A DNA stretch of 64,000 bases from Halieaceae bacterium (GTDB lineage Bacteria > Pseudomonadota > Gammaproteobacteria > Pseudomonadales > Halieaceae). The translations under genes and the position numbers were made by a program. The stretch's first letter is position 1, and every line of letters starts with the position of its first letter. The DNA lies in assembly GCA_902547755.1 (NCBI GenBank), contig CACCPA010000006.1:1-64000 (forward strand), in the 5' to 3' direction. Shown here piece after piece: positions 48,055-64,000 of this stretch. The notes under the pieces are model-generated. The model was not told the DNA's origin. It saw only the letters and a program-made list of their open reading frames with translations, and did not search any database.

Positions 48055-50514
48055 ATGAGCTCAGCCGAATACCATCCAGAGACCCTCGAAACGGAGATCC
48101 AGTCGTCGTGGCTCTCGAATAAGACATTTTCGGTTCAGGCTGATACTACACAGGAGAAGTTTTACTGCCTGGCGATGTTCCCCTACCCAAGCGGTAAGCT
48201 GCATATGGGACACGTTCGCAACTACACCATCGCGGACGTCATCGCGCGCTATCAGCGAATGCTTGGTAAGAATGTTCTTCAACCCATGGGCTGGGATGCC
48301 TTCGGTTTGCCTGCAGAGAACGCTGCCATCCAGCAGAAAGCGGCACCCGCTACGTGGACAAAAGGCAACATAGCGGAGATGCGAAAGCAACTACAGCGCT
48401 TGGGGTTTGCCTACGACTGGGACCGTGAGCTAGCGACTTGCTCTCCAGACTACTATCAATGGGAACAATGGTTTTTTACCCGGCTCTATGAAAAAGGGCT
48501 GGTCTACAAAAAAATGGCAACCGTTAACTGGGACCCTATAGATCAAACAGTGCTCGCCAATGAACAGGTCATCGATGGGCGAGGCTGGCGTTCCGGAGCG
48601 GAAGTAGAGCGTCGTGAGATACCGCAGTGGTTCATTCGCATCACCGAATACGCCGATGAACTTCTCGACGACCTAGATAAGCTCTCGGGCTGGCCTGAGC
48701 CTGTAAAACTGATGCAGCGGAATTGGATAGGTAAAAGCTACGGCCTTGAATTGAGTTTTGAGCTCCCCGCCCCCATCGCTGAACGCGACAAAATTGAGGT
48801 ATACACAACACGCCCGGATACACTCTACGGCGTTACGTATATCAGTCTCGCCGCCGAGCACCCGATAAGCCTTGCCCTAGCAGACGAAAATCGGGATCTC
48901 GCTGAATTTATCGATCGCTGCAGAAAATCTTCAGTCTCTGCGGCCGATATGGCACGCGCTGAGAAACTTGGGATGGATACAGGGTTACGCGCTGTTCACC
49001 CGTTGACGGGCGACATGGTGCCCGTGTGGGTAGCTAACTATGTCTTGATGGATTACGGATCAGGCGCAGTCATGGCCGTACCGGCGCATGATGAACGCGA
49101 TTGGGAGTTCGCCCATCAATATGAGCTGCCCATCGTCACTGTTATCAATAACTCAGCTGGTCAGCCCGCCGATGTGTCAACCGCTGCCTATACCGAACAT
49201 GGAACGCTCGTAAATTCAGATACCTATGATGGCTTAGGATTCCAAGAAGCCTTTAATCAGATTGCTGCTTCTCTCGAGGAGAAAGGTCTCGGCAAGGTAA
49301 CAACGCAATACCGACTTAGGGACTGGGGCGTCTCGCGACAGCGTTATTGGGGTACACCGATACCCATGCTGAATCTTACCGATGGGGGGGAGCTCCCTAT
49401 TCCGGCCGATCGACTTCCGTCGTTACTGCCAGAAGATGTTGTTATGGAAGGTGTGGCATCGCCCATTAAGACAGATCCGGATTGGCGGAAGTTCAGTCAT
49501 AACGGGGAAGATTGCGAACGGGAGACCGACACCTTCGATACCTTTATACAATCGTCCTGGTACTACGCTCGATTTACTTGCCCTGACTATGACAAAGGCA
49601 TGCTCGATTCAGAAGTTGCTAACTACTGGCTTCCGGTCGACCAATATGTGGGCGGTATCGAACATGCCATCCTGCACTTGCTATACGCTCGCTTTTTCCA
49701 CAAGTTGATGCGTGACGAGGGGCTGGTCGACTCGGATGAGCCGTTTGAACGCCTATTGACTCAGGGCATGGTGCTCAAAGATGGCGCCAAAATGTCAAAG
49801 TCCAAAGGCAATACGGTAGATCCTCAGGAGCTGATTGACCGCTATGGCGCGGACACCGTGCGTTTGTTCAGTATGTTTGCTGCGCCCCCAGAGCAATCAT
49901 TGGAGTGGTCAGACGCCGGTGTAGAGGGATCGCACCGATTTTTGAAGCGCCTGTGGCGACTGGTTCAAGATCGTGCCGTACACGAAGACTCTGTTGATGT
50001 GAAAACAGCGAACCTCAGTAAACCCCAAAAAGACCTTCGCCGAAAAACGCATGAGACCATTGCCAAAGTCAGTGATGACTGCGGTCGGCGGCAGACATTC
50101 AACACGGCAGTCGCAGCGGTTATGGAGCTTTGCAATGACGTGAGCCGTCACAGCGGCGAATCGGCAGAGGACGCGGCTGTGGTTGACGAGGCGTTAACGA
50201 CAGCCGTTTCGCTACTGAACCCCATCGTGCCTCATATCAGTGAAACGCTGTTCGGCCAGCTTACAGGTGGCGACATCCTTCAGGCGCCATGGCCCGAGCT
50301 CGATGAAGGCGCGCTCGCCCGAGACGAAATCGACATTGTCGTTCAAGTGAATGGGAAGGTACGAGCCAAGATCTCGGTGGCCGCCGATGCCTCGAAAGAA
50401 GCGATAGAGCAAACAGCACTCACACACGATAACGTCCAACGCTTCACGTACGGCGTGACGGTGCGCAAAATCATCGTCGTTCCCGGAAAACTGGTCAATG
50501 TGGTTGCCAATTAA
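48055..50514 (+). CDS. leuS: Leucyl-tRNA synthetase
   Basis: LeuRS charges tRNA-Leu and edits mis-charged products. The 819-residue class I synthetase has the HIGH-type motif HMGH in [14 protein letters not shown], the editing CP1 domain ([12 protein letters not shown]), the KMSKS motif in [11 protein letters not shown], and a C-terminal domain ending [15 protein letters not shown]. The length is slightly short for the bacterial type (about 860). It starts with ATG after a 44-base gap from lnt and overlaps lptE by 17 bases. Confidence 0.97.
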
Positions 50515-51037
50515 TCAATGGCAGCGATTGCTACGCCGCGCCGCACTGATGTTGCTGGCTAGCACGCTTGTCAGTTGTGGGTTTGAGCTGAGAGGTCAGA
50601 GTGACCGGGCGGCCACGCTGGGGCGTTATCCAATCGCCGTTGTCAGTCAGGCTCCCAGCAGTGAGTTCGCGGCTCAATTGCGCGGTGAACTCCAGCGCCA
50701 AGGGGCAGCCTTACTCCCCCTGATCGAGGCTGAATTAGTCCTCTACGTCGATATTGAAGCGTTTGAGCAGCGCAGCCTTTCCCTAACCGCACGTGCGCGC
50801 GCAGCTGAACTCGAGCTGCAGGCCAGTGTGAACTTCTCGGTAAAGCTCAACGGGGAATGGCTCATCGACAACGAACGCATTGCTGTTGTCGATCAAATGC
50901 TCAATGACCCATTAAACGTTGTCGGCAAAACGGAAGAAATGCGACTGCTGCAAGAGGAGTTACGCACTGCCCTTGTGGAAGCGCTCACCCGCCGACTGGA
51001 TTACGGCATTGCCGCGTACCATGCAAGTCAAACCTGA
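50498..51037 (+). CDS. lptE: LPS-assembly lipoprotein LptE
   Basis: LptE plugs the LptD barrel and helps insert lipopolysaccharide in the outer membrane. The 179-residue protein has a lipoprotein signal ([17 protein letters not shown], lipid cysteine at residue 27), then GFELRG, the typical start of mature LptE. It lies inside the conserved leuS-lptE-holA series. The start is inside the leuS end and no nearer start preserves the signal peptide. Conservation is low apart from the first part, so position matters. Confidence 0.93.
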
Positions 51038-52052
51038 GCAGCTAGAGCAACATCTAAAACAGGGCATGCGGCCCTGCTACCTGGTCACCGGTGCCGAACT
51101 GTTGATTGTTCAGGAATGTGCCGATGCGATCCGGCGCGCTGCTCGTGCTGCCGGTTGTATTGATCGAGAGCGCTTTGATTCGTCGGACAAAGAGAGTTGG
51201 CAGAACCTCGTTCAAAGTGCCAGCGCCATGTCGCTTTTTGCCGACAGGAAATTGATCGAGATACAGGTTGAGAACGGTAAGCCGGGCGCAGAAGGCAGCA
51301 AGGCACTGCAGGAGTACCTGTCGATAGACAGTGAGGACATACTGCTGATTGTGGCGGGCAAGATTGACAAGCAGTCGCAGCGCGCCAAGTGGTTCACAGC
51401 GCTGGATCAGAGCGGGACCGTTGTGACCGTCTGGCCGATTCATCCACGTGACCTCCCCTCCTGGATTCAGCAGCGAGTAAACCGGCGAGGCATGAAGTGT
51501 GATCGCGAGGCGATTTCCATGCTCGCCGAGCGCGTGGAGGGCAACCTCCTCGCTGCCGCACAGGAGATTGAGAAACTCTCCCTGCTGGCCAACGACACAC
51601 ATATCACAACTGAGATCGTGTCCCAGTCGGTTGGTAACAGCGCCCGCTACAACGCCTTTAATATGGTGGATACCGCACTTGCCGGCGATGCTCGTGGTGC
51701 TCTGCGCGCGCTGCGGGGACTCAAAGCCGAGGGCAGCGCGGCACCCGCCATTCTCTGGCCAATATCAAAAGAGCTCAGACTCCTAATCGACGCCTCGTCT
51801 GCTGTAAAGAAAGGTACACCGGCAGGCGCTGCACTCGATCGATTAGGCGTTTGGCGCAGCCGACTGAATTTGATGCAGCAGGCACTGGGTAGACACACGC
51901 CGGAGAGTCTTGATCACTGCCTGCACCTCAACTTTGCCGCAGATGGCAGTGCCAAAGGCTTGATGCCCAGAGACTGCTGGGACTATCTCGAGTCACTTGT
52001 TGTCGCGATCGCCTCGGGCGCGAAATCTGAAACAACCCGCCGGCGCGCGTAA
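51021..52052 (+). CDS. holA: DNA polymerase III delta subunit
   Basis: HolA opens the beta clamp in the clamp-loader complex. The 343-residue protein (the same length as E. coli HolA) starts [20 protein letters not shown] and contains YLVTGAELLIVQE, with an AAA+-like but nucleotide-free fold. The frame opens 34 codons further upstream within lptE, but that part does not align. Its 3' end overlaps the convergent MFS gene by 70 bases. Confidence 0.95.
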   Translation: MQVKPEQLEQHLKQGMRPCYLVTGAELLIVQECADAIRRAARAAGCIDRERFDSSDKESWQNLVQSASAMSLFADRKLIEIQVENGKPGAEGSKALQEYLSIDSEDILLIVAGKIDKQSQRAKWFTALDQSGTVVTVWPIHPRDLPSWIQQRVNRRGMKCDREAISMLAERVEGNLLAAAQEIEKLSLLANDTHITTEIVSQSVGNSARYNAFNMVDTALAGDARGALRALRGLKAEGSAAPAILWPISKELRLLIDASSAVKKGTPAGAALDRLGVWRSRLNLMQQALGRHTPESLDHCLHLNFAADGSAKGLMPRDCWDYLESLVVAIASGAKSETTRRRA

Positions 52053-53242
52053 AGCGCCAGTACCGCTAACACCCCCAGCGCTGACGCTACAGCGAAGGTC
52101 GTAACGAACCCTGCCCACTCTGCAAGGGCACCATTGGTGGCGGCCCCCAGTGCAGGAGATGCCATCATTGTCATCGACCACAGACTCATGACGCGTCCGT
52201 GGTAATTCGGGTCGATGACTAGCTGGGTCAGTGCCTGACATCCAGTACCTGCGATCGTCGTCGTAAAGGTAATAAGGCCCACCACAGCAGCGAGGCTTAT
52301 CAGCGCATCCAACCAGTTCAGAGTGGCAAGCAGTAACGTTGCCCCCAAAAGCGCCACTAAAATCAGGCGATACAGACCGATGACATCAGCGGACTGCCGG
52401 CTCATTAACAAGCCACCGAGAACTGCACCGGTGCCTGCGGTAGCGGTCAGCCAAGCCAATTCGCTCGCCCCACCCATCAGCAGCCGACCTGATACGGCGG
52501 GCAGTAATTCAATAAAGCTGCGGCCCAGGAGACCGTTAACCAAGGTCGACAAAAGAATCAGAATGATCACAGGGGTGTTGCGCACGTAGTTCAACCCCTC
52601 AATAAATTCGCTGTTGACGCTTTTGTCAGAGCGGCTTTCCCGTGCACCGACCCCGCGAAGCGTTGTCAAAATCACGCCTGAGGTTCCGAAAATGCAGACA
52701 GCAACGAGCCAAGCCCAGCCAACACCCCATTGGGCAATGATTGCGGCGCACATTGCGGGGCCCAAGATGCGGGCAATATTGAAGGACATGGCGACAAGCC
52801 CAATAGCACTCGGCAGCGCACTTCGAGGAACCAGAAGCGGAACGAGCGCCAAGCGCATGGGATTATGCAACGCCGATGCAGACCCCAGCGCTGCCGCGAG
52901 CAACAGTAGCGTCAGCTCATCGAAGGCACCAAGAAAGGTCGTAATGGCGCCAGTAAGACCGATGGATGAGTGGAACACCATTGAAAAAATTAGGCCGTGC
53001 CGAGGGTTAACCCGATCTGACTGCACACCAAAATAAGGTGACAAAACAAGTGCCGGAGCCAACATCAACGCGCCCACAATGCCGACCCATAGGGGTGATG
53101 CTGTCAGCTCCCAGGCACTCCAGCCCAGGATGAAGCGCAATATCCAGCTCCCGAGACCAGAGAACCAACTCGCCGGGTAGTAACGCCGAAATCGAGGCTC
53201 TCTTAATGCGGAATGAGCAACCTGTCGCTTTTCACGACACAC
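51983..53242 (-). CDS. MFS exporter (EntS/MFS_3-like)
   Basis: The 419-residue protein has about twelve hydrophobic helices and resembles the MFS_3/EntS exporters, with FRRYYPASWFSGLGSWI at the first helix and a DR-type loop motif (GVQSDRVNPRHG). Substrate cannot be inferred. It starts at a GTG without a clear ribosome-binding site and is divergent from imuA; a LexA box lies 40-55 bases upstream of its start. The last 24 codons overlap the end of holA on the other strand. Confidence 0.8.
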   Translation of the reverse strand: MCREKRQVAHSALREPRFRRYYPASWFSGLGSWILRFILGWSAWELTASPLWVGIVGALMLAPALVLSPYFGVQSDRVNPRHGLIFSMVFHSSIGLTGAITTFLGAFDELTLLLLAAALGSASALHNPMRLALVPLLVPRSALPSAIGLVAMSFNIARILGPAMCAAIIAQWGVGWAWLVAVCIFGTSGVILTTLRGVGARESRSDKSVNSEFIEGLNYVRNTPVIILILLSTLVNGLLGRSFIELLPAVSGRLLMGGASELAWLTATAGTGAVLGGLLMSRQSADVIGLYRLILVALLGATLLLATLNWLDALISLAAVVGLITFTTTIAGTGCQALTQLVIDPNYHGRVMSLWSMTMMASPALGAATNGALAEWAGFVTTFAVASALGVLAVLALYARRRVVSDFAPEAIATTSDSR

Positions 53243-53281
53243 AAATATCGCCTCTCTTGCTTTTCAATCACAATGGAACTA

Positions 53282-53297
53282 CTGTTTATTTATACAG
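53282..53297. promoter_or_regulatory. LexA box upstream of imuA
   Basis: CTGTTTATTTATACAG is a perfect CTGT-N8-ACAG palindrome, extended as TA on both sides (53280-53299), matching the gammaproteobacterial SOS box. It lies 53 bases before the imuA ATG and 39 bases before the divergent MFS GTG, so it may control either or both. Confidence 0.93.
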
Positions 53298-53350
53298 TAT
53301 TTTTACTAATGCCTTTTCAGCACGCATTAGTCTTATTTTCGGAGCACATC

Positions 53351-54091
53351 ATGAGCTACTCCATAGAGCAAATCATCAATCGTCCAGACACCTGGCAGGG
53401 CAGTGAAGGACGCAGTAATTCACGCGTCATTCTAACCACTAAGTCAGCCAATGCGGACTGGCATAACAAACAAAGTATCCCCACTGGCTTTGAGAGCCTC
53501 GATAAAGAGCTTCACCTCAATGGTTGGCCAACCCACGGCGCAGTCGAAGTCCTGAGCGATCAGGATGGTGCTGAGTGTATGGGACTCTTTCTACCCACAA
53601 TGCAAAAACTGGCAAGCGAGAAGCGCTGGCAAGCTTTCATTAACGCACCACACACACCCTATGCCCCATTATTACGCGCCCATCATATCCCCACTGAGCA
53701 AGTACTTATGGTTCATCCGAAACACCGTGATGAAACGTTATGGGCTACCGAGCAAGCAGTTCGCAGTACAACCTGCAGCACAGTATTTACCTGGTTAGGG
53801 AGCACTCACTTCCGTTATGCAGAGATTCGCAAACTGCAGTTAGCCGCCGCCAGTACGGACACACTACTCTTCTTGTTCAGATCGAGCGATGCGCTATCTG
53901 ACTCAACACCTGTATCGCTACGTCTACACATTAATGCCTACCGTGAAGTCACCGTCGTCAAACAGCGTGGCGGTAAACGCGAAGTCGATGTGCGGTTACC
54001 CACGAACCCTATTCTGGAAACTCATGACATTACACACCGCAGTAAGGCGCTTGCTACTAAGACAGGTACGTTCTTAACGCCCGTCGCATAG
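53351..54091 (+). CDS. imuA: SOS mutagenesis protein ImuA (RecA-like)
   Basis: ImuA is a RecA-fold accessory factor of the ImuA-ImuB-DnaE2 translesion mutasome. The 246-residue protein shows the family outline: IPTGFESLDKELHLNGWPTH near the front, then a degenerate P-loop region (AVEVLSDQDGAECMG, lacking GKT), and a C-terminal stretch with VKQRGGKREVDV. The ATG at 53351 has GGAG 6 bases upstream; the frame extends to 53213 but would place the LexA box inside the coding region. Elsewhere imuA is followed at once by imuB; here imuB lies 4.5 kb away. Confidence 0.87.
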   Translation: MSYSIEQIINRPDTWQGSEGRSNSRVILTTKSANADWHNKQSIPTGFESLDKELHLNGWPTHGAVEVLSDQDGAECMGLFLPTMQKLASEKRWQAFINAPHTPYAPLLRAHHIPTEQVLMVHPKHRDETLWATEQAVRSTTCSTVFTWLGSTHFRYAEIRKLQLAAASTDTLLFLFRSSDALSDSTPVSLRLHINAYREVTVVKQRGGKREVDVRLPTNPILETHDITHRSKALATKTGTFLTPVA

Positions 54092-54118
54092 CGCCCACTC
54101 TCCCTACGCTTCCCCACT

Positions 54119-54154
54119 ACCCCGGGACTCGGGCTCCCCTCCGAGTTTCGGGGT
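54119..54154 (+). terminator. Strong hairpin after imuA, no T run
   Basis: The arms 54119-54132 and 54141-54154 pair over 14 bases with two G-T pairs and an 8-base loop. It directly follows imuA by 27 bases. The absence of a T run makes rho-independent termination less sure; RNA stabilisation or a repetitive palindrome are alternatives. Confidence 0.55.
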
Positions 54155-54241
54155 CTCTCACTTATCTAACGTTATCGAAGATGCTCTAACCTTAGACCTG
54201 ACTGCGTTATGCTCTCGGCGTACCAACTAGCTCGATGTGAG

Positions 54242-54979
54242 ATGCCTGAACTACCCATCACAAGTGATATCTTTTTGTTACTGGTCACAACCAGCTTCAT
54301 CGCCTCAATGCTCACTGCATCAGTCGGTATTGGTGGTGGCACACTGGTGCTCGCGGTGCTTGTCGTAACCGTCCCTATCGCCGCTGTCGTACCACTGCAC
54401 AGCGTCGTTCAGCTTGGCTCCAATACCGGACGGGCTATCATGACGCGCCCCCATCTCTCGATGCGCTTGTTCTGGCCATTGGTCATCGGCGCTGTCATTG
54501 GCACCCTCGCAGCTGCTCCCTTTAGCGCTTTTTGGCTAAATGAGATACAGCTCACCCTGCTACTCGCGGGTTTTACGCTGCTGGTCACCTGGGTACCCAT
54601 CCCAGCCATAAAAACCCATCGAAGCAGTCACAGTCTGCTCTTTAGCATTGGCATCAGCTTCATTGGGGTATTTGTTAGCGCAACCGGTCCTTTGATTGCG
54701 GCCTACCTCAGACACCAAGCAGCAAGCCGGCAAGAGCTGGTCGCCACAATGGCTGCCAGCGTCTCGACAATGAACTTTCTTCGCATCGTGCTGTTTAGCG
54801 GGCTTGGCTTCGTGTGGTACGAGTGGCTTGTCCCGCTCGCGGCCATGATTACAGCTGGCTTTGGCGGGACACTCATTGGGCTGCAATTGCTAGGCCGCTT
54901 GCCCGAGAAATTATTTCAGACACTACTCAAACTGCTACTCACCACACTTGCATTTCTGATGATCATTAGAGTCATGTGA
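54242..54979 (+). CDS. TauE/SafE-family membrane permease
   Basis: The 245-residue protein has about eight hydrophobic helices and the TauE/SafE signature ASVGIGGGTLVLAVLV, with the second-half repeat VSATGPLIAAYL. Members export sulfite, sulfoacetate and other organosulfur anions, but the substrate here is unknown. ATG 54242 is used; ATG 54209 would add 11 residues. It is convergent with the DUF885 gene and sits between imuA and imuB without a LexA box of its own. Confidence 0.85.
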   Translation: MPELPITSDIFLLLVTTSFIASMLTASVGIGGGTLVLAVLVVTVPIAAVVPLHSVVQLGSNTGRAIMTRPHLSMRLFWPLVIGAVIGTLAAAPFSAFWLNEIQLTLLLAGFTLLVTWVPIPAIKTHRSSHSLLFSIGISFIGVFVSATGPLIAAYLRHQAASRQELVATMAASVSTMNFLRIVLFSGLGFVWYEWLVPLAAMITAGFGGTLIGLQLLGRLPEKLFQTLLKLLLTTLAFLMIIRVM

Positions 54980-54995
54980 TCAGGTTTCGCTGCTC

Positions 54996-56846
54996 TTATC
55001 CTTCTGAATCTTGTACTCGAACCATAGCATCGATGTTCTCTGCCAACTTGTTAAGCGGAACCGGGCCGCTGCCAAGCACCGTGTCGTGGAACAACCGGAT
55101 ATCAAACTTATCTCCCAAGGCTTCGCGCGCTTGCTCGCGAAGTTCAACAATGCGCAGTTTCCCAATCATGTAGGCAGTCGCCTGCCCGGGCATGGCGATG
55201 TAGCGCTCAATGGCTTTGATGCAGTCATACTCTGCATTGGGCGTATTGTTGACCAAATAGGCGATTGCCTCCTCACGACTCCAGCGCTTGCTGTGGATGC
55301 CAGTATCCACGACCAATCGCGCCGCTCGCCAGAGTTCCATTGCCAACTGCCCAAATCGCGAATATGGATACTCGTAAAATCCCATTTCGTAAGCCAGTTG
55401 CTCGGTATACAAGCCCCACCCCTCGGAGAATGCGGTAAAACTGAGGTAGCGCTGTAAATCGGGAACACCCTCCAACTCGGCTGTAATGGCGCGCTGAAGA
55501 TGGTGTCCGGGTAATCCCTCATGGAAAGCTAGGGCTTCCAAATCGGTCTTTGGCATCGCCGACATATCAAACAGGTTGGCGTAAAAAATACCGGGACGCG
55601 ATCCGTCAGGCGGTGGGCTCTGATAGAAAGCTTTACCCGCGCTCTGCTCTCGGAACGGCTCGACACGTTTAACGATTAATTCCGCTTTTGGGAGCACACC
55701 GAAATACTCGGGCAACTTTTCCTCCATGCGTGCTATAGCCGATCGCGCGTCCTCAAGGTACTGCTCCCTACCTTCATCGGTGTTGGGGTAACGCAGCTCC
55801 TGATTTTCCCGAACAAACACAAAAAACTCTTGGAGCGTTCCCGAAAAGCCGACCTGTCGCATGATCGATCGCATCTCGTCATGAATACGATCTATGTTGG
55901 TCAGGCCTAGCTGGTGAACCTCATCGGCCGTTAACTCAGTTGTCGTGAACCACTTCAGCAGGCGCTGGTAGTACTCCTCACCATCGGGAAACCGCCAAAC
56001 CCCATCATCGCCCGTTGCCGATTGCGCTAGGCGCTCGACAGTCGCCATAAAACGCGTGTACGCAGGCTTAAACTGGGACACCAAGGCATCGCGCCCAGCA
56101 TTGAGCAGGCGCGCCTCTTCGTCTTCTAGAAGCTCGAGCTTGGCGACTTTCGCCTGAAAGTCAGACCACACAGGCGAAAGGTTCTCTGAATCGTCAAAGG
56201 GCTGACCGCTAATGACATTACTCGAGGACTCCAAAATAGCTGGGTACATCCAGTCGACAAGATAAAACCCTTTATCAGCTCGCAGTATGAGCTGCTCCTC
56301 AACCTCCCCTAAATAGGTCTCAACATTCTTCAGCCGCCCTACATAAGCCTCAGCATCTACGACTGAGGTCACCCGGTGAATGTTGATGAGCGAGCTGGGG
56401 ATACTGGTATGAGCACCACGAAATTGGTGTAGCGCGTAAGCGTGGTGACGGAAGTCATCGAGCATGAGCGACCGCTCAAGCGACATGCGATAGAGATCAA
56501 GCGATAATTGCGCCGCCTCGGGTAGCGCTGAGCGATCGAACCCGTCGAGCTCAACCAATCCCGCTTCCATCCGAGCCCGTTCCTCATCCTGAAACGCTTC
56601 TGATTGCGGGTTCCACTCATCTTGGCGGTCTTTAATGCCAAGATAGCTTGCCGTAAAGGGCTGCCTAGCGAGGTTATCGGCGAACACTTGCGCCAAATAC
56701 GCGTTCAAACGTTCATGCTCAGACTGTGCAGCTGGCACGTTGCTAACCACCGGGGTATCACTGGACTGAATCTGTGAGTCGCCACATCCAGCTAGCAAGA
56801 GTGTGACGGCGCAGGTCGCGGCGAGGAAGGTATGTAGAATTTGCAT
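54996..56846 (-). CDS. DUF885 lipoprotein, putative metallopeptidase
   Basis: The 616-residue protein starts with a lipoprotein signal peptide (MQILHTFLAATCAVTLLLAG then lipid cysteine 21) and is a DUF885 member. The conserved motif AFHEGLPGHHLQ is an HE-x5-HH-like zinc site, so it is probably an envelope metallopeptidase. The open frame extends 86 codons upstream, but the true start is the ATG at 56846 with AGAG upstream. Substrate is unknown. It is read toward the TauE/SafE gene, opposite in direction to imuA and imuB. Confidence 0.87.
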   Translation of the reverse strand: MQILHTFLAATCAVTLLLAGCGDSQIQSSDTPVVSNVPAAQSEHERLNAYLAQVFADNLARQPFTASYLGIKDRQDEWNPQSEAFQDEERARMEAGLVELDGFDRSALPEAAQLSLDLYRMSLERSLMLDDFRHHAYALHQFRGAHTSIPSSLINIHRVTSVVDAEAYVGRLKNVETYLGEVEEQLILRADKGFYLVDWMYPAILESSSNVISGQPFDDSENLSPVWSDFQAKVAKLELLEDEEARLLNAGRDALVSQFKPAYTRFMATVERLAQSATGDDGVWRFPDGEEYYQRLLKWFTTTELTADEVHQLGLTNIDRIHDEMRSIMRQVGFSGTLQEFFVFVRENQELRYPNTDEGREQYLEDARSAIARMEEKLPEYFGVLPKAELIVKRVEPFREQSAGKAFYQSPPPDGSRPGIFYANLFDMSAMPKTDLEALAFHEGLPGHHLQRAITAELEGVPDLQRYLSFTAFSEGWGLYTEQLAYEMGFYEYPYSRFGQLAMELWRAARLVVDTGIHSKRWSREEAIAYLVNNTPNAEYDCIKAIERYIAMPGQATAYMIGKLRIVELREQAREALGDKFDIRLFHDTVLGSGPVPLNKLAENIDAMVRVQDSEG

Positions 56847-56980
56847 AAGTGTTTCTCTGATAACAACCGGTGAAGCGCCCATGGTAACCCAGCAATAAGC
56901 ACCGAGCCTCAGCTTTGGGAAAACTTGCCTGAGCAGGATATGAACCTTATGGTCTAGCAATTCGATCGCAGGAGCGAACT

Positions 56981-58507
56981 GTGTCAAAAGGACCGACTCA
57001 AATCGATGCCCAAGCGCATTTAGATCAGGTAACCGCCGATACCTCAGATGCGGTGCGGAAATCGGCGCGGGAGAAGCGTCACGCAAAAGGTTTTCGAACT
57101 GCACGTGAAAATTTGGCAGATCTGGTCGATGGCGACAGCTTCGTGGAATACGGGCAGTTGGCGGTAGCAGCCCAGCGCGGACGAAGAGATCCCGAGTCGA
57201 TGCGCATTGATACTGCGGCCGACGGTGTAATCACTGGTACAGCAACGATCAATAAAGACCTCATTGCAGGCGGGGGAAGCGATGTCGCCGTCGCGATCTA
57301 TGACTACAGTGTGCTAGCCGGTACACAAGGGTTCTTCCATCACCAAAAACTCGACCGAATTTTCGAGGTTGCAGAGCGAGAGCGCCTACCCTTTGTAATG
57401 TACACCGAGGGTGGTGGCGGTCGTCCGGGGGATACCGACGTTAAGGTGAATATTGCGGGGTTGAACAGTACCTCTTTCAGCCGCTGGGCGGGACTGACCG
57501 GCAAAGTGCCCCGTGTCACCGTGAATAATGGGTACTGCTTCGCGGGCAATGCCGCTCTTTTTGGCGCGGGCGATATTCGTATTGCAACCAAATCATCATC
57601 GATCGGCATGGCGGGCCCTGCCATGATCGAAGGCGGTGGTCTCGGTAGTTTTCATCCCAATGAAATCGGACCAGTCAATACATTGTGCAACGCAGGTGCA
57701 ATCGATCTGTTAGCTGAGGACGAAGCCCATGCCACCGCACTAGCGAAATGGGCTTTGAGTTACGGCCAAGGTACCGTTCAGCCAGACGCTGTTGCTGATC
57801 AGATGGCGCTAAGAACCATCCTGCCCGAGAATCGGCGTATGGCCTATGACGTTAGACGGGTCATAGACGTGTTATTCGATCAGCAGTCGGTACTCGAACT
57901 GCGTCCAGTCTATGGACGTGCCGTGGTTACAGCCTTAGCCCGCGTTGAAGGCCATCCCGTTGCGGTCATCGCGAGCGACTGTCGCCATTTGGGTGGCGCG
58001 GTGGATGTCGACGCTGCTAGAAAAGCCGGTGAAATGATGGAGCTGGCCAAGCGATGGCGATTACCCATCGTATCCCTTGTCGATACACCCGGATTTATGG
58101 TGGGACCCGATAGCGAAGCAATGGGTGCAGCGAAAGTGATGCCCGAGCTCTTCAATACGGCGGCCAGTGTCGATACGCCGTGGGTGGGTTTGTTCCTCAG
58201 ACGCGGGTACGGATTGGGTGCCATGGTGCTGGTAGGTGGCTCATTTGAGTTTCCGACCATCACCGCTAGTTGGCCGCAGGGCGAGTTTGGCGGTATGGGA
58301 CTTGAAGGTGCCGTCAGGCTAGGTTTCAAAAAAGAGCTGGAAGCGGTGCCCGAAGGCGATGCGCGTGATGCGCTCTACGGAAAATTGGTGGCAGACATGT
58401 ACGAGAAAGGTCGTGCGACCGAAGCCGCAGCCTACTTGGAAATTGACATGGTGATTGACCCCGCAGAAAGTCGAAAAGTCATCTTACGAGGCATCAGGCA
58501 GGGTTAA
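56981..58507 (+). CDS. Acyl-CoA carboxylase carboxyltransferase subunit
   Basis: The 508-residue protein has the crotonase-fold N- and C-terminal carboxyltransferase halves, including VMYTEGGGGRPGDTDV, GNAALFGAGDIRIATKSSSI and VDTPGFMVGPDSE, which form acyl-CoA and biotin sites. These subunits move CO2 from biotin to acetyl-, propionyl- or methylcrotonyl-CoA. A GTG start has GGAG 6 bases upstream. No biotin carboxylase or biotin carrier gene is nearby, so it must pair with a distant partner or be a stand-alone relative. It ends 69 bases before the imuB LexA box. Confidence 0.85.
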   Translation: MSKGPTQIDAQAHLDQVTADTSDAVRKSAREKRHAKGFRTARENLADLVDGDSFVEYGQLAVAAQRGRRDPESMRIDTAADGVITGTATINKDLIAGGGSDVAVAIYDYSVLAGTQGFFHHQKLDRIFEVAERERLPFVMYTEGGGGRPGDTDVKVNIAGLNSTSFSRWAGLTGKVPRVTVNNGYCFAGNAALFGAGDIRIATKSSSIGMAGPAMIEGGGLGSFHPNEIGPVNTLCNAGAIDLLAEDEAHATALAKWALSYGQGTVQPDAVADQMALRTILPENRRMAYDVRRVIDVLFDQQSVLELRPVYGRAVVTALARVEGHPVAVIASDCRHLGGAVDVDAARKAGEMMELAKRWRLPIVSLVDTPGFMVGPDSEAMGAAKVMPELFNTAASVDTPWVGLFLRRGYGLGAMVLVGGSFEFPTITASWPQGEFGGMGLEGAVRLGFKKELEAVPEGDARDALYGKLVADMYEKGRATEAAAYLEIDMVIDPAESRKVILRGIRQG

Positions 58508-58576
58508 TACGGTCAAAGATTGTGCAGGCTACTAGATCAAGAGGTTATCGCTTGTGAACTAGCCATCATCCATATA

Positions 58577-58592
58577 CTGTATAAATAAACAG
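58577..58592. promoter_or_regulatory. LexA box upstream of imuB
   Basis: CTGTATAAATAAACAG is a perfect CTGT-N8-ACAG palindrome with TATA extensions. It ends 16 bases before the imuB GTG and contains a possible -10 TATAAA (58580-58585), so LexA binding would cover the promoter core. Confidence 0.93.
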
Positions 58593-58608
58593 TATATGCG
58601 TTGAATCT

Positions 58609-60051
58609 GTGCTCTGGCTTTGCCTACATTTTCCTAAATTGCCTCTCGAGGCACTGATACCAAAACCGAGTTTTGGTGATGCCAGCTTGCGCGTCGTTAT
58701 TGAGGCAAGCCGAGTTGTAACCTGTGATGACGAAGTCGAGGCATTAGGCGTGACGACAGGCCTAAAGCAATCGACCGTCAGTGGTTTACTCAGCGGACAT
58801 CCCTTGCAATTACTCAGCCGAGATCGCGAGAAGGAACACCAGACACTCAAACGCCTAAGGCAATGGGCGTATTCCATTACACCGACATTGAGCTTGTGGC
58901 GAGGTGACTGCTTGCAGCTGGAAATCAGTCGCTGCCTCTTGGTTCATGGTGGGCTCGAAGCTCTGCTGAAAAAAGTCGCTATTGAATTCGATCAACGCGG
59001 ATTCAGTGTATTTGCAGGTGTTGGACCCAGTCGCGAATCAGCGTGGCTACTGAGCCAATTTAATCGCGCCTCTATCGCATCGATTGCTGACCAGGGACTG
59101 CCCTTGGGGTCTCAATTATCCCACATCCCTTTGTCTTATCTTGATGAATTCCCCAAAGACACAGCGGCGCTGGCTAAAGCCGGCATTCGTACCTTCAAGG
59201 AACTACTGTCACTACCCAGCACTTCCGTTAAGCAACGCTGCAGTCATGAATTTTTCTCATGGATTGACCGGCTCTTATGTCGGGTTGAAGTCGCTCTGGA
59301 GGATTTTCAACCCGACCCGGAATACAACGACATTGCCTGGCTCGGTTACGGATCAAAAAATAATCAGGAGCTGATTCCGGCAATGGAGGCTCTACTGGAA
59401 AAGCTCTCTTTATTCCTTCGGCATACACAACTTGAAACGCCGCAACTGCGATGGGTATTTATACCCACCCAAGGGCAACACACAGCCTTAGACATCCGCA
59501 GTAGTGAATGCCATAACAATCCTAAACGCTGGCTGGAGCAGTCGCAGCTTAAGCTCGATCAGATGACCTTCGAAGACCTGATTGAAGGCATACAGCTCGA
59601 GGCCTGTGAGCTGGCTCCAGCGCAACACCGGACCCAGGACCTCTTTTTAGAATCGAAACATCAGGAACCCTTATCGCAATTGATTGACCGTCTACGCAGC
59701 CGCCTGGGTTTTCAGGCGGTCACTCATATCTACGAACGCGCTGAACATTTGCCAGAGTTTTGTTCTTATGCCGACCCCAACCAACTGACAACAGAGGCCG
59801 ACGATGCTTCAACACGCAACCGTCCATTTTGGTTGCTAAACGCACCTCAGCCCATCAGCCAACGAGGCAATCAACTGTACTGGATGGATGCACTAAATAT
59901 TGTCAAAGGACCTGAGCGGCTAGAGGATTACTGGTGGAGTCAGCCCACCAGTCGCGACTATTACATTGCCAAAACAGACAGTGGGCAGCCTGTTTGGATC
60001 TTTCAAGATCGTCACAGCCGCTGTTGGTTTTTGCACGGTTTATTCGATTGA
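58609..60051 (+). CDS. imuB: Y-family polymerase homologue ImuB (non-catalytic)
   Basis: ImuB is a Y-family relative that lacks polymerase activity but links DnaE2 and ImuA to the beta clamp. The 480-residue protein opens LWLCLHFPKLPLEAL, where true polymerases have DxD-type metal ligands, and the second motif reads GDCLQLEISRCLLVHGG instead of SIDEAYLD. It lacks the catalytic acids. A candidate clamp-binding motif QDLFL is at 343-347. It starts at GTG 58609 with no visible ribosome-binding site, close to the LexA box. The lipocalin gene lies between it and dnaE2, on the other strand. Confidence 0.9.
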   Translation: MLWLCLHFPKLPLEALIPKPSFGDASLRVVIEASRVVTCDDEVEALGVTTGLKQSTVSGLLSGHPLQLLSRDREKEHQTLKRLRQWAYSITPTLSLWRGDCLQLEISRCLLVHGGLEALLKKVAIEFDQRGFSVFAGVGPSRESAWLLSQFNRASIASIADQGLPLGSQLSHIPLSYLDEFPKDTAALAKAGIRTFKELLSLPSTSVKQRCSHEFFSWIDRLLCRVEVALEDFQPDPEYNDIAWLGYGSKNNQELIPAMEALLEKLSLFLRHTQLETPQLRWVFIPTQGQHTALDIRSSECHNNPKRWLEQSQLKLDQMTFEDLIEGIQLEACELAPAQHRTQDLFLESKHQEPLSQLIDRLRSRLGFQAVTHIYERAEHLPEFCSYADPNQLTTEADDASTRNRPFWLLNAPQPISQRGNQLYWMDALNIVKGPERLEDYWWSQPTSRDYYIAKTDSGQPVWIFQDRHSRCWFLHGLFD

Positions 60052-60093
60052 TATGACGTAGTTCGGGGCGATATTCCCACTCCACTGACAGGT

Positions 60094-60609
60094 TTACTCG
60101 GTCACCACCCATATCAAATCGTCTGTTTCGAAACCAAGCGACTGGCTTTGTGCAATGAATCGCTCACGTACCTCCGGGCTTAATTGCGGTTCACGCGCTA
60201 GAAGCCATAAGTAGTCCGTATTGTACCCCGAGACAAAGGTATAGCTGTAGTCGTCCGCCAGCTCGAACACAGCATAGGTACCGTAGAAAGGACCAAAAAA
60301 AGAAACCTTGAGGTGTCCCACGTCCCGGGATCCCATCGGCTTAGCCACACCTTCAGCTTGGCGCCACTCCCCTTTCTGCGTGTTAAAACCCTTATTCAAC
60401 ACAGAAATTGAACCATCTTCATTGAGACCGTAGGTTGCCGTAACGCGCTCTAGGTTACGCTCAAAGCTGTGATCGAGACGGGCTATTTCATGCCATTTGC
60501 CGAGGTAACGCTCAGAATCAAAACCAACGACAGGCTCGACATCATCGGGCAGACCAGTACAACCCACGATCAATACAGCAATACAGGCAGTAACCATTCG
60601 TTTAAACAT
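60094..60609 (-). CDS. blc: Outer-membrane lipocalin Blc
   Basis: Blc is a bacterial lipocalin that binds lysophospholipids and fatty acids, anchored to the outer membrane. The 171-residue protein has a lipobox LIVGC (lipid cysteine 17), then GFDSERYLGKWHEIARLDH, the G-x-W lipocalin motif, and NTDYLWLLAREPQLS near the end, both typical. ATG 60609 is used, preceded by AAGGAAG. It is convergent with imuB, 42 bases from its end, and divergent from dnaE2. Confidence 0.93.
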   Translation of the reverse strand: MFKRMVTACIAVLIVGCTGLPDDVEPVVGFDSERYLGKWHEIARLDHSFERNLERVTATYGLNEDGSISVLNKGFNTQKGEWRQAEGVAKPMGSRDVGHLKVSFFGPFYGTYAVFELADDYSYTFVSGYNTDYLWLLAREPQLSPEVRERFIAQSQSLGFETDDLIWVVTE

Positions 60610-60695
60610 GGCGTGGACTTCCTTCACTTGAAGATTCAGTCGTCAGTATGACTGACAACTGAATCGATGTGGGGTTTATTGCCAAAGTCATTATA

Positions 60696-60711
60696 CTGTA
60701 TAAAAATACAG
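60696..60711. promoter_or_regulatory. LexA box upstream of dnaE2
   Basis: CTGTATAAAAATACAG is a perfect CTGT-N8-ACAG palindrome, TA-extended on both sides. It ends 9 bases before the dnaE2 ATG. It is 86 bases from the divergent lipocalin start, so lipocalin control is less likely. Confidence 0.94.
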
Positions 60712-60720
60712 TATTTTGAT

Positions 60721-63700
60721 ATGTCCTACGCCGAGCTTCACTGCCTCAGTAACTACAGCTTCCTCAGAGGCGCATCGCACCCATCCGAACTGGTGGAGCA
60801 AGCGGTACATCTGGGTTATTCCGCCTTGGCGATCACGGACGAATGCTCTCTTGCAGGTGTTGTCAAAGCACATGTCGTCGCAAAAGAGCTCGATTTCAAA
60901 CTCATCATTGGCAGTGAATTTAATGTCAGTGAAGGGTTAAAACTCGTCGCTATTGCACCATCACGGGCGGCCTACGGTGAATTATCGAATCTGATCAGTC
61001 GCTCGCGTCGACGTAGCGAAAAAGGGCAGTACCTGACCCACCTGCGCGATATTTATTTCCACCTCAAGCGCTGCTTCATCATTTGGTTACCAACACACAT
61101 TGACAAGGAAAAACACCACGCTGACATACTGTCACGCCGATTCGCTGACCGGTTCTGGATTGGAGTTACCCAGCTCCTACACCACGACGACACCGCACGC
61201 CTAGCCGAGTTACAGCAGATTGCCTCCGAACTAAAGGCGCCACTCATCGCCTGTGGCAGTGTGGAGATGCACTCTGTGAGCAGAAAGATGTTGCACGATG
61301 TCGTAACGGCCATACGCCACAACAGTTCAGTGCAGGAACTTGGGAAACGACGATCGAGTAATAGTCAGCAACATCTTAGACGCCTCGATAAGCTGCTCCC
61401 ACTCTACCCCTCTGAACTGATTGGCGAGACTTTGCGACTGGCACAGCAATGCCATTTCAGTCTGGATGAGCTTCGGTACGAATACCCGGAAGAAGTGGTT
61501 CCGAACGGCCACTCGGCCAACAGCTATTTGCGCGAGTGTGTTTCAGAAGGTGCGAATAAGCGCTGGCCCAACGGCGTCCCAAGTGACATACACAAACGTA
61601 TCGAGTACGAGCTTGAACTCATCACAGAACTCAACTACGAGTATTACTTCCTCACCGTTTATGACGTTGTCAATTTCGCACGCCGCAGGGGCATCTTGTG
61701 CCAGGGTCGAGGCTCGGCAGCTAACTCTGTTGTCTGTTACTGCCTGCACATTACTGAAGTGTCGCCCGAACACGTATCACTGCTATTCGAACGCTTCATA
61801 TCACGGGAGCGTGATGAACCACCTGATATCGATGTCGACTTTGAGCATGAGCGACGCGAAGAAGTCATTCAGTACATTTACGAAAAATATACCCGCCGGC
61901 GCGCTGCCCTCGCAGCAACAGTTATCACCTACCGTTCGCGCAGCGCCGTAAGAGATGTCGGCAAGGCTCTCGGAATGGACGCTGTCTTCGTAGAAGACCT
62001 GGCTAAATCACTCGCGTGGTGGAATCGAGAACGAGAGCTCACGGCCAAATTCAAGGAACAAGGCATTCAGGCGAGCAGTCAACAGGCCGATCTCTTCTTA
62101 AAAATGACACAGCAAATCCTCGGATTTCCACGACATTTATCTCAGCATGTCGGCGGCTTTGTCATTAGTCGTGGCCCTATTTCAAACTTGGTGCCTATCG
62201 AAAATGCCAGCATGCCAAACCGAACTGTCATTCAGTGGGATAAAGAAGACATCGAAGCGTTGGGTTTACTGAAAGTAGATATCCTGGCGCTGGGGATGCT
62301 CTCGGCTATTCGTAAAACACTGGCTCTGATTCAGCGAGATACGCCCGCCATTCGACGTATTCAGGACATCCCGAAAGACGATCAGGCCACTTTCCGCATG
62401 CTGCAAACTGGAGACTCTTTGGGTGTGTTTCAGATTGAATCCAGAGCGCAGATGTCGATGCTCCCGCGGTTAAAACCGAGCTGCTTTTATGACCTTGTCA
62501 TCGAAATTGCCATTGTTCGACCGGGACCTATCCAGGGCGACATGGTGCATCCCTACCTTAGGCGACGTACCGGATTAGAACCCATTACTTATCCAGATCC
62601 AGCGATTCAGTCCGTACTTGAAAGCACGCTTGGGGTACCGATTTTTCAGGAGCAAGTCATTCGACTCGCCATGGTGGCTGCTGGATTTAGTGGCGGAGAG
62701 GCTGACTCACTTAGGAGGGCTATCACCAACTGGGGGAAGAACAGCAAATTGCTGACATTCGAGAATAAGCTCAAAACAGGCATGTTAAATCGAGGGTATA
62801 GCGCAGAATTTGCGGACCAGCTCTTCAACCAAATTAAAGGCTTTGGTGGTTACGGGTTTCCAGAATCACACTCGGCTAGCTTCGCCTTGCTAGCATATGT
62901 ATCCGCGTGGTTTAAGCGCCATCATCCCGGCGCTTTCTATGTCGGCCTGCTCAACAGCCAACCCATGGGGTTTTATACGCCCTCACAGCTCATTCAAGAC
63001 GCAGAGCGACACGGTATTAACGCGCTACCTGTAGACGTCAACGCGAGCGACTGGGACCACCAGTTGCTGTCAACGCCACCGTCACAGCAGAACACCATTC
63101 GCTTAGGGCTGCGGTTGGTTAAAGGACTTAGCAAACGCGGCGCAGAGCAACTGATAGATGCACGACGCACACGGCTTTTCCAGTCGGTCATAGATCTTAA
63201 ACGACGTGCGAAGCTGGATAAGGACGATTTGGAAGCACTATCTGCTGCTGATACTTTGTCATCACTCTCGGGACATCGTCACAAGACACATTGGGCTGTC
63301 ATGGCTGTCAAAGAGGCTCAACCGTTACTGATTGATGAACACTCATCTGCCGAGGAGGGTGCTTTCGCCATTGCTCCTCCCTCAATGACGGAAAATGTTT
63401 TATTTGATTATCAAAGTACCGGTCTAACCCTGCGCGCGCATCCCCTGGCACTCTTACGACAACAATCGCCGTTCGATCAATGCCGTAAACAGTCGGAGCT
63501 CATCACGATGGGTAATCGCCGCTTTGTAAGAACAGCGGGACTTGTCACCTGCCGCCAGCGACCGGGAACTGCGTCAGGTGTAGTGTTCCTTACACTCGAA
63601 GATGAAACAGGAAACATCAATGTGGTGGTCTGGCCTGGCGTTCAAGAACAGTTCAGAGCCGCACTGATGACCGCGCAACTCCTACTGATCAAGGGCACCG

Positions 63701-63801
63701 TCGAGTCACGTGACGGCGTCACACACGTTATTGCCAGCGCCTTATACGACCACAGTCATGCACTGAGTCGTCTGGCAGTTAAGTCGAGGGACTTTCATTA
63801 A
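60721..63801 (+). CDS. dnaE2: Error-prone DNA polymerase DnaE2
   Basis: DnaE2 is the C-family polymerase that carries out SOS mutagenic synthesis with ImuA and ImuB. The 1026-residue protein has an N-terminal PHP domain (YAELHCLSNYSFLRGASHP), the polymerase catalytic aspartates in PDIDVDF (D371 and D373) and in LLKVDILALGML, a fingers region, a helix-hairpin-helix and a C-terminal OB fold (RTAGLVTCRQRPGTASGVVF). The ATG at 60721 is 9 bases after the LexA box, without a clear ribosome-binding site; the frame extends 18 codons upstream across the box. Tandem repeats begin in its last codons. Confidence 0.96.
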   Translation: MSYAELHCLSNYSFLRGASHPSELVEQAVHLGYSALAITDECSLAGVVKAHVVAKELDFKLIIGSEFNVSEGLKLVAIAPSRAAYGELSNLISRSRRRSEKGQYLTHLRDIYFHLKRCFIIWLPTHIDKEKHHADILSRRFADRFWIGVTQLLHHDDTARLAELQQIASELKAPLIACGSVEMHSVSRKMLHDVVTAIRHNSSVQELGKRRSSNSQQHLRRLDKLLPLYPSELIGETLRLAQQCHFSLDELRYEYPEEVVPNGHSANSYLRECVSEGANKRWPNGVPSDIHKRIEYELELITELNYEYYFLTVYDVVNFARRRGILCQGRGSAANSVVCYCLHITEVSPEHVSLLFERFISRERDEPPDIDVDFEHERREEVIQYIYEKYTRRRAALAATVITYRSRSAVRDVGKALGMDAVFVEDLAKSLAWWNRERELTAKFKEQGIQASSQQADLFLKMTQQILGFPRHLSQHVGGFVISRGPISNLVPIENASMPNRTVIQWDKEDIEALGLLKVDILALGMLSAIRKTLALIQRDTPAIRRIQDIPKDDQATFRMLQTGDSLGVFQIESRAQMSMLPRLKPSCFYDLVIEIAIVRPGPIQGDMVHPYLRRRTGLEPITYPDPAIQSVLESTLGVPIFQEQVIRLAMVAAGFSGGEADSLRRAITNWGKNSKLLTFENKLKTGMLNRGYSAEFADQLFNQIKGFGGYGFPESHSASFALLAYVSAWFKRHHPGAFYVGLLNSQPMGFYTPSQLIQDAERHGINALPVDVNASDWDHQLLSTPPSQQNTIRLGLRLVKGLSKRGAEQLIDARRTRLFQSVIDLKRRAKLDKDDLEALSAADTLSSLSGHRHKTHWAVMAVKEAQPLLIDEHSSAEEGAFAIAPPSMTENVLFDYQSTGLTLRAHPLALLRQQSPFDQCRKQSELITMGNRRFVRTAGLVTCRQRPGTASGVVFLTLEDETGNINVVVWPGVQEQFRAALMTAQLLLIKGTVESRDGVTHVIASALYDHSHALSRLAVKSRDFH

Positions 63802-63890
63802 AAGCTTTCATTAAAAGCTTTCATTAAAAAGCTTTCATTAAAGGGCGTTCATAAAAGAGTATTCATTGAGAGCTACATAAAAGCTGTACA
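63791..63890 (+). repeat. Decaying tandem repeat at the dnaE2 3' end (unit about 13 bases)
   Basis: A unit AAAAGCTTTCATT is repeated with increasing divergence. The first, partial copy supplies the last codons and stop of dnaE2; exact copies lie at 63800-63812 and 63813-63825, a 14-base copy at 63826-63839, then degenerate copies to about 63890. Units contain the AAAGCTTT palindrome. From about 63891 to the window end (110 bases) I see no gene, terminator or other feature. Confidence 0.8.
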
Positions 63891-64000
63891 GGCAGCCGAA
63901 TTAAAAGTCGGATGACACCCGTATCAAACGCGGAGCTTGCGGCACGAGCTGGGACTGAAGGATTAACGTCTTTTAAGGCGCTGTAGGGGTAATCGGTACC

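Follow-up and report, generated by a model that had tools for sequence, protein, structure and literature searches.

Separately boxed imuA, imuB and dnaE2 genes suggest a dispersed, LexA-controlled mutasome in Luminiphilus

How does an SOS mutasome come to be spread over several places on a chromosome, and could its parts still respond together? The question is raised by the window studied here, a 64,000-nucleotide stretch of contig CACCPA010000006.1 from a Halieaceae bacterium of the genus Luminiphilus (assembly GCA_902547755.1, a draft of 2.09 Mb in 53 contigs, 72% complete), in which imuA, imuB and dnaE2 all lie within 10.5 kb. PMC3901139 and PMC9578287 describe a LexA-regulated imuA-imuB-dnaE2 cassette in Pseudomonas putida and Caulobacter crescentus that is one co-transcribed unit. 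The window encodes the same three protein families, also under predicted LexA control, but as three units with three boxes. We consider it probable (about 0.8) that the ImuA-ImuB-DnaE2 mutasome has been turned into three separately controlled transcription units, which arose by stepwise dispersal of an ancestral operon. All three mutasome genes have their own predicted LexA box, and the three contiguous genes behind one box that define a single-operon imuABC are absent from the window. The features of the locus are as follows, the boxes having been located by pattern and consensus scans and by a genome-wide scan.

53282..53297, + strand: LexA box of imuA, CTGTTTATTTATACAG
53351..54091, + strand: imuA (NCBIfam NF033429, 196 bits, cut-off 150)
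54119..54154, + strand: GC-rich 15-bp hairpin directly 3' of imuA (fold -28.7 kcal/mol, z -3.81)
54209..54979, + strand: TauE/SafE family permease (PF01925), an intervening gene typical of the window's subclade
54996..56856, - strand: DUF885 protein (PF05960, 591 bits), start approximate (longest open reading frame to 57104)
56981..58507, + strand: acyl-CoA carboxyltransferase (PF01039)
58571..58598, no strand: inverted repeat surrounding the imuB LexA box, adding 6 perfect pairs beyond it
58577..58592, + strand: LexA box of imuB, CTGTATAAATAAACAG
58609..60051, + strand: imuB (Y-family profile match, family alignment)
60094..60627, - strand: Blc-like outer membrane lipocalin (PF08212; NF007786, 211 bits, below the cut-off of 267)
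60696..60711, + strand: LexA box of dnaE2, CTGTATAAAAATACAG
60721..63801, + strand: dnaE2, also called imuC (NCBIfam NF004225, 1401 bits, cut-off 939)

The original prediction had described a perfect CTGT-N8-ACAG box directly upstream of each gene, four non-repair genes among the three, two of them on the opposite strand, and reverse-complementary cores in the first two boxes. A pattern scan confirmed a box close upstream of every gene (53, 16 and 9 bases from the start codons of imuA, imuB and dnaE2). The four intervening genes (TauE, DUF885, carboxyltransferase and lipocalin) are as described, and the core of box 1 is the exact reverse complement of that of box 2. The further claim that the genes cannot share a transcript holds in a softer form: one shared ordinary transcript is unlikely, because opposite-strand genes lie in both gaps. 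A terminator scan found none after imuA, where the hairpin has no T run; this hairpin is a possible transcript end.

Neither NCBIfam nor Pfam gave a match to the window ImuB at E 0.001. A profile of its family matched solved structures of Y-family polymerases (7yll, E 1.7e-21) and of DNA polymerase IV (Pol IV). The position of the Pol IV Asp-Glu pair, which we take to be catalytic residues, is variable in the ImuB family and reads Asp-Cys in the window (the comparison covers that pair); the protein is predicted to have a Y-family fold without the catalytic acids at the aligned pair. Residues 342-348 of ImuB are TQDLFLE, with LF invariant in 16 of 16 alignment rows, and this stretch is a candidate beta-clamp binding motif. 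The DnaE2-type C-family polymerase is accompanied in the genome by a second, 30% identical copy, a separate DnaE1 (G000:C8).

We assessed whether the boxes exceed chance. CTGT-N8-ACAG occurs three times in the window against 0.76 expected; this loose pattern alone is weak evidence, because three sites also turn up in 3 of 100 shuffles. A scan allowing up to three mismatches to the palindromic consensus finds just these three sites in the window, and none of 100 shuffles reaches that number. In the whole draft genome, CTGT-W8-ACAG is found three times, exactly at imuA, imuB and dnaE2, and a reversed control pattern is found nowhere. Three relatives (G005, G030 and G016) each have three such sites, all at these genes. 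In a fourth (G015) both perfect sites lie at imuB and dnaE2, and the imuA box contains one C. A one-mismatch box, CTGATTATATATACAG, precedes recA in the window genome, G005, G030 and G016, and lexA boxes are clear in many relatives; a LexA regulon therefore exists. Judged by these scans, the mutasome genes carry the closest consensus matches found in the window genome and these four relatives, and we infer that imuA, imuB and dnaE2 of the window are under SOS control.

Protein searches covered 58 genomes, 37 of them from the window's genus, Luminiphilus, and 21 from other families of the order, and fetched loci were mapped by tblastn. Of the 37 genus genomes, 34 gave an ImuB match and 35 an ImuA match. 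Wherever imuA and imuB share a contig (26 genomes), a gap of some 0.9 kb or more separates them, with order and strand unchanged (26 of 26), and wherever imuB and dnaE2 do so (32 genomes), an opposite-strand blc-like gene lies between them (32 of 32). Across the genus, 35 genomes showed a LexA box at imuA, 33 at imuB, 33 at dnaE2 and 31 at all three genes; these counts include a dnaE2 box entered by hand from the genome-wide scan (G013), and one imuB fragment (G036) was left unmapped. The only box-less gene matches among the mapped loci are two fragments, starting at residues 147 and 673. Distances from box to start are about 11-18 bases at imuB, 8-17 at dnaE2 and 47-164 at imuA, the last measured to the start homologous to that of the window (other in-frame starts exist). 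DnaE2 identity falls to about 71% among the genomes keeping the boxes, and the persistence of the boxes throughout the genus argues for the importance of each. The gap genes of the window's subclade are TauE, DUF885 and carboxyltransferase (DUF885 was not found in G027), and in other clades and genera a 145-residue OsmC-like gene follows imuA in 7 of the 8 gaps read (Pfam-checked in one, the rest by eye). On the genomes compared, the split of imuA, imuB and dnaE2 is old and genus-wide, not recent.

Outside the family, contiguous imuA-imuB-dnaE2 was present in 8 of the 21 genomes. The box before imuA is perfect in six of these operons, has one mismatch in another and was not found in the last; none was found before imuB or dnaE2 in any of the eight. 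The remaining outgroups comprise three with imuAB and a distant boxed dnaE2, one with imuAB and no close dnaE2 match, and nine without an imuB match. Among 80 named loci, split and contiguous states both recur. Of 15 named genomes of Halieaceae or near it, six, among them HTCC2148, Seongchinamella unica and UBA4452, have a boxed imuB lying away from imuA, and three have the two genes side by side (six more were not classifiable). The imuA-imuB gap of HTCC2148 (L354:2627-7776) holds OsmC-like and macro-domain-like genes, recognized by eye, and a phage-type integrase (PF00589).

These comparisons are consistent with an ancestral imuA-imuB-dnaE2 operon having been dispersed step by step, in Halieaceae or earlier, with LexA control kept or regained at each piece. 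LexA would sit on each box and block each gene. After DNA damage, RecA would make LexA cleave itself, releasing imuA, imuB and dnaE2 in parallel, so that the complex could be assembled without an operon. LexA binding, SOS induction and the order of events are all predicted here from sequence. Co-regulation, not co-transcription, may be what selection keeps in the SOS mutasome, as the pieces appear to have retained or regained a LexA box.

Variation in such systems has been described before. The composition of the mutasome cassette is variable, according to PMC9578287, and PMC6511836 places imuA'-imuB of mycobacteria apart from dnaE2. That is a two-part split in which imuA'-imuB stay together, whereas in the window imuA and imuB are also apart, all within 10.5 kb. 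In the Vibrionaceae, according to PMC3323433, insertions separate SOS genes at uvrA/ssb and ruvC/ruvAB; independent LexA sites persist, as for ssb, and ruvC apparently lost control after insertion. The same paper treats LexA control of the cassette as persistent. The window likewise has separated SOS genes with their own LexA sites; the genes differ. More surprising than the window itself are two leads in its relatives, a repeat at the imuB box and an integrase gene joined to dnaE2.

In Luminiphilus an inverted repeat is centred on the imuB LexA box, which forms its apex; the two arms vary from species to species yet covary. We aligned positions 58563-58606 of the window with the imuB promoters of the genus (alignment A4; 33 sequences, 32 distinct) and scored the 12 flanking pairs. 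Standard pairs made up 81% against 60% in shuffled alignments, two-sided changes numbered 84 against 32 shuffled and at most 31 slid, and the covariation score was 0.526 against 0.173 shuffled (reached in 0 of 500) and at most 0.170 slid; shuffling removes the relatedness of the sequences and thereby inflates the signal, and sliding retains that relatedness, with the stem favoured against the slid control through having been chosen after viewing the same sequences. Further pair types numbered 31 against 25.6 shuffled (reached in 7 of 500), and pairs showing any two-sided change, ten in all, did not exceed the shuffled number (mean 9.2; ten reached in 193 of 500). When right arms were swapped between genomes, the mean fell to 3.88 of 8 pairs from 6.34 with the true arms, and no swap among 2000 exceeded 4.78.

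The other boxes behave differently. No repeat signal was found at the imuA box (covariation 0.114 vs 0.132; arm swap 3.45 vs 3.56), and arms at lexA and recA boxes run for 0-3 bases (28 and 17 sites). The genus mean at dnaE2, 3.52 against a null mean of 3.12 and a null maximum of 3.76, is not beyond every swapped set, and 4 of 29 distinct dnaE2 sites have arms of at least 11 bases; the dnaE2 alignment (A6) is gapped and was left out of the pair counts. In other Halieaceae, borderline values are seen for the dnaE2 boxes (3.71; highest null 3.64) and for the intI boxes (4.0; highest null 4.0), and imuB box arms reach 5-13 bases in all seven examples examined from other Halieaceae and UBA4452. 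The window's own repeat is short, with 6 perfect pairs outside the box against 8-13 in many relatives, and its hairpin has a z of -2.9.

Two explanations of the repeat were weighed. Possibly, and we put this forward tentatively, it acts in RNA: read-through transcripts would fold the region of the start codon into a long hairpin and go untranslated, and SOS transcripts starting inside the box would lack the left arm and be translated. The covariation, the strong hairpins adjoining the imuB start, the long arms at all seven imuB boxes outside the genus and the lack of any such signal at imuA, lexA and recA point this way. Against it, the repeat is short in the window itself, the gene preceding imuB is often divergent, some long dnaE2 repeats of relatives sit 40-80 bases from the start, and the transcript starts are assumed. 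G-T pairs are also not clearly commoner than A-C mismatches (13 vs 6, P 0.08), and these wobble counts favour neither an RNA-level nor a DNA-level origin. Slightly less likely, in our view, is a mutational by-product, in which repeated template switches at a palindromic seed would rewrite one arm as a copy of the other. It would suit arms that change freely while staying complementary, runs of varying length at dnaE2 and intI, and the sporadic long arms elsewhere (L208, L223), but the boxes of imuA, lexA and recA are similar seeds and have not been extended. The repeat makes a second layer of control testable.

The gap between imuB and dnaE2 was followed into the sister genera. In UBA5044, dnaE2 is preceded by a gene for an integron integrase (TIGR02249, 428 bits, cut-off 265). 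IntI scored over the cut-off in 33 of 140 family genomes (34 copies, one with internal stops) and in none of 57 Luminiphilus genomes, many of them drafts. Twenty-three of the 34 copies (loci L226:9011-13120 and L311-L339) lie directly 5' of dnaE2 on the same strand, one such dnaE2 match being a 56-residue piece. Fourteen of these 23 pairs have a LexA box only 5' of intI, with about 2-27 bases between the genes; seven have one only between the genes (gaps of 50-76 bases, 448 in one), one has both, and one lacks its 5' end. Decayed integrase pieces precede dnaE2 in ten more genomes, three in the copy survey and seven among 40 stretches read upstream of dnaE2. Of those 40, 29 show no integrase and have their own box (28 perfect, one with a single mismatch), over at most about 1.9 kb seen and in places a few hundred bases; in three, dnaE2 follows imuB directly and lacks a box, and one ambiguous case (G096) was set aside. 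The copy survey and these stretches together covered 65 of the 83 family genomes outside the genus. Over about 29 kb in Seongchinamella, where the integrase is decayed, and 37 kb in UBA5044, imuA, imuB, integrase and dnaE2 follow in that order. The imuB-dnaE2 gap of HTCC2148, when read, showed no integrase.

SOS-controlled chromosomal integron integrases with a LexA box before intI were described by Cambray 2011 (PMC3108266). That box is shared with the sister genera, in which dnaE2 lies directly behind intI; a word search of the main text of that paper returned no words beginning dnaE, polymerase or operon. Literature searches at the level of titles and passages found no published description of an intI-dnaE2 unit or of the other features presented here, the layout survey of Erill 2006 being outside their reach. 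If expressed, an intI-dnaE2 unit would place two sources of evolvability, the recombination of gene cassettes and error-prone DNA synthesis, behind a single promoter that responds to damage.

The suggestion that the cassette was broken by insertion is plausible in UBA5044 and Seongchinamella, whose imuB-dnaE2 gaps hold the integron integrase. For the window, where no integron is left, integron remains were considered and rejected, as neither an integrase nor an attC-like site was found (positions 50001-64000 for attC, with a weak detector). In the DnaE2 tree, built by a quick method from 73 rows, 15 of them under half filled, and with an outgroup that is not a single clade, Luminiphilus forms one clade (99) nested in a clade (95) of which both sides hold intI-dnaE2 carriers. 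With less certainty than for the dispersal itself, we infer that imuB was parted from dnaE2 by a chromosomal integron present at dnaE2 in ancestors of the family, and that Luminiphilus has since lost this integron. Two side observations concern the same junction. A gammaproteobacterial draft among the outgroup rows of the tree (L236:9018-13078) has an integrase, 49% identical, just before dnaE2. Three genomes assigned to the family (L406, L411 and L412, from G108, G171 and G169) have DnaE2 grouping with Cellvibrionaceae and dnaE2 right behind imuB, possibly through replacement by transfer.

Several points weigh against stepwise dispersal and the integron step within it. In seven genomes of the window's wider subclade, lexA has a one-mismatch box (four) or none found by the scan (three), which makes the strength of the regulon uncertain. 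The window genome is a 72% complete draft, and transcription and binding are predicted from its sequence. The IntI tree agrees modestly with DnaE2 (Mantel r 0.32, with 27 of 2000 permutations as high; 0.28 and 12 of 2000 without the odd copy L311), the G128 copy that places the association deep is itself divergent, and 11 of the 34 IntI copies lie elsewhere than at dnaE2; the integron may therefore have been replaced or have arrived more than once. The attC detector is weak, with counts near the shuffled level in most stretches, so that it was not used for counts; it gave a few convincing sites (L351, L358) and none in L350, where a repeat finder showed what we read as attC-like repeats. Loss in Luminiphilus is the economical reading and is not proved, because of the modest fit of the trees and the divergent G128 copy.

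A fuller history can be sketched, although as a whole we hold it rather unlikely. An integron would have settled between imuB and dnaE2 in the ancestor of Halieaceae, making the LexA-controlled integrase and the polymerase one SOS unit. Many lineages would keep this unit, others would hold a decayed integrase, and Luminiphilus would have lost it, the scattered mutasome being the scar. Cut off from imuA, imuB would have gained a new LexA operator within a self-complementary repeat, which would also guard the gene against read-through. If true, cassette shuffling and mutagenesis would be switched on by the same promoter.

It is improbable that only some of the boxed genes are SOS-induced and that the others are expressed from housekeeping promoters or by read-through, for instance from the carboxyltransferase into imuB. 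The carboxyltransferase is co-directional with imuB and lies about 70 bases before its box. No sigma-70-type match was found at imuA or imuB in the window, and the one over the dnaE2 box (9 of 12) is no better than in shuffles. Separate SOS control of all three genes remains our preferred account, as boxes are kept at all three in 31 genomes though DnaE2 identity falls as noted above.

The original prediction had favoured a recent break, with promoter duplication or co-option, and the exactly reverse-complementary boxes 1 and 2 would suit an intact operon split by insertion in this single genome with its promoter duplicated onto the pieces; this can be dismissed, since related genomes keep the same order throughout the genus, and those of the window's subclade the same intervening genes too, and since box cores vary from clade to clade, with identity or inversion linking different pairs of genes, and flanks are alike no more than by chance. 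Among the 31 genomes with all three boxes, the imuA and imuB cores are reverse complements in nine, all from the window's subclade; imuA equals dnaE2 in four, imuB equals dnaE2 in one, and no such identity occurs in 17. The best of the 40-base flank comparisons had 17 of 40 identical, the 99th percentile of random pairs, with the TA neighbours of the LexA consensus included in the flanks. Promoter duplication was rejected on both counts, and convergence on a few good LexA cores would be a simpler reading. Two loci among the DnaE2 matches (L219 and L253) come from entries titled Klebsiella pneumoniae and Bordetella parapertussis; they look like other gammaproteobacterial drafts and are possibly mislabelled.

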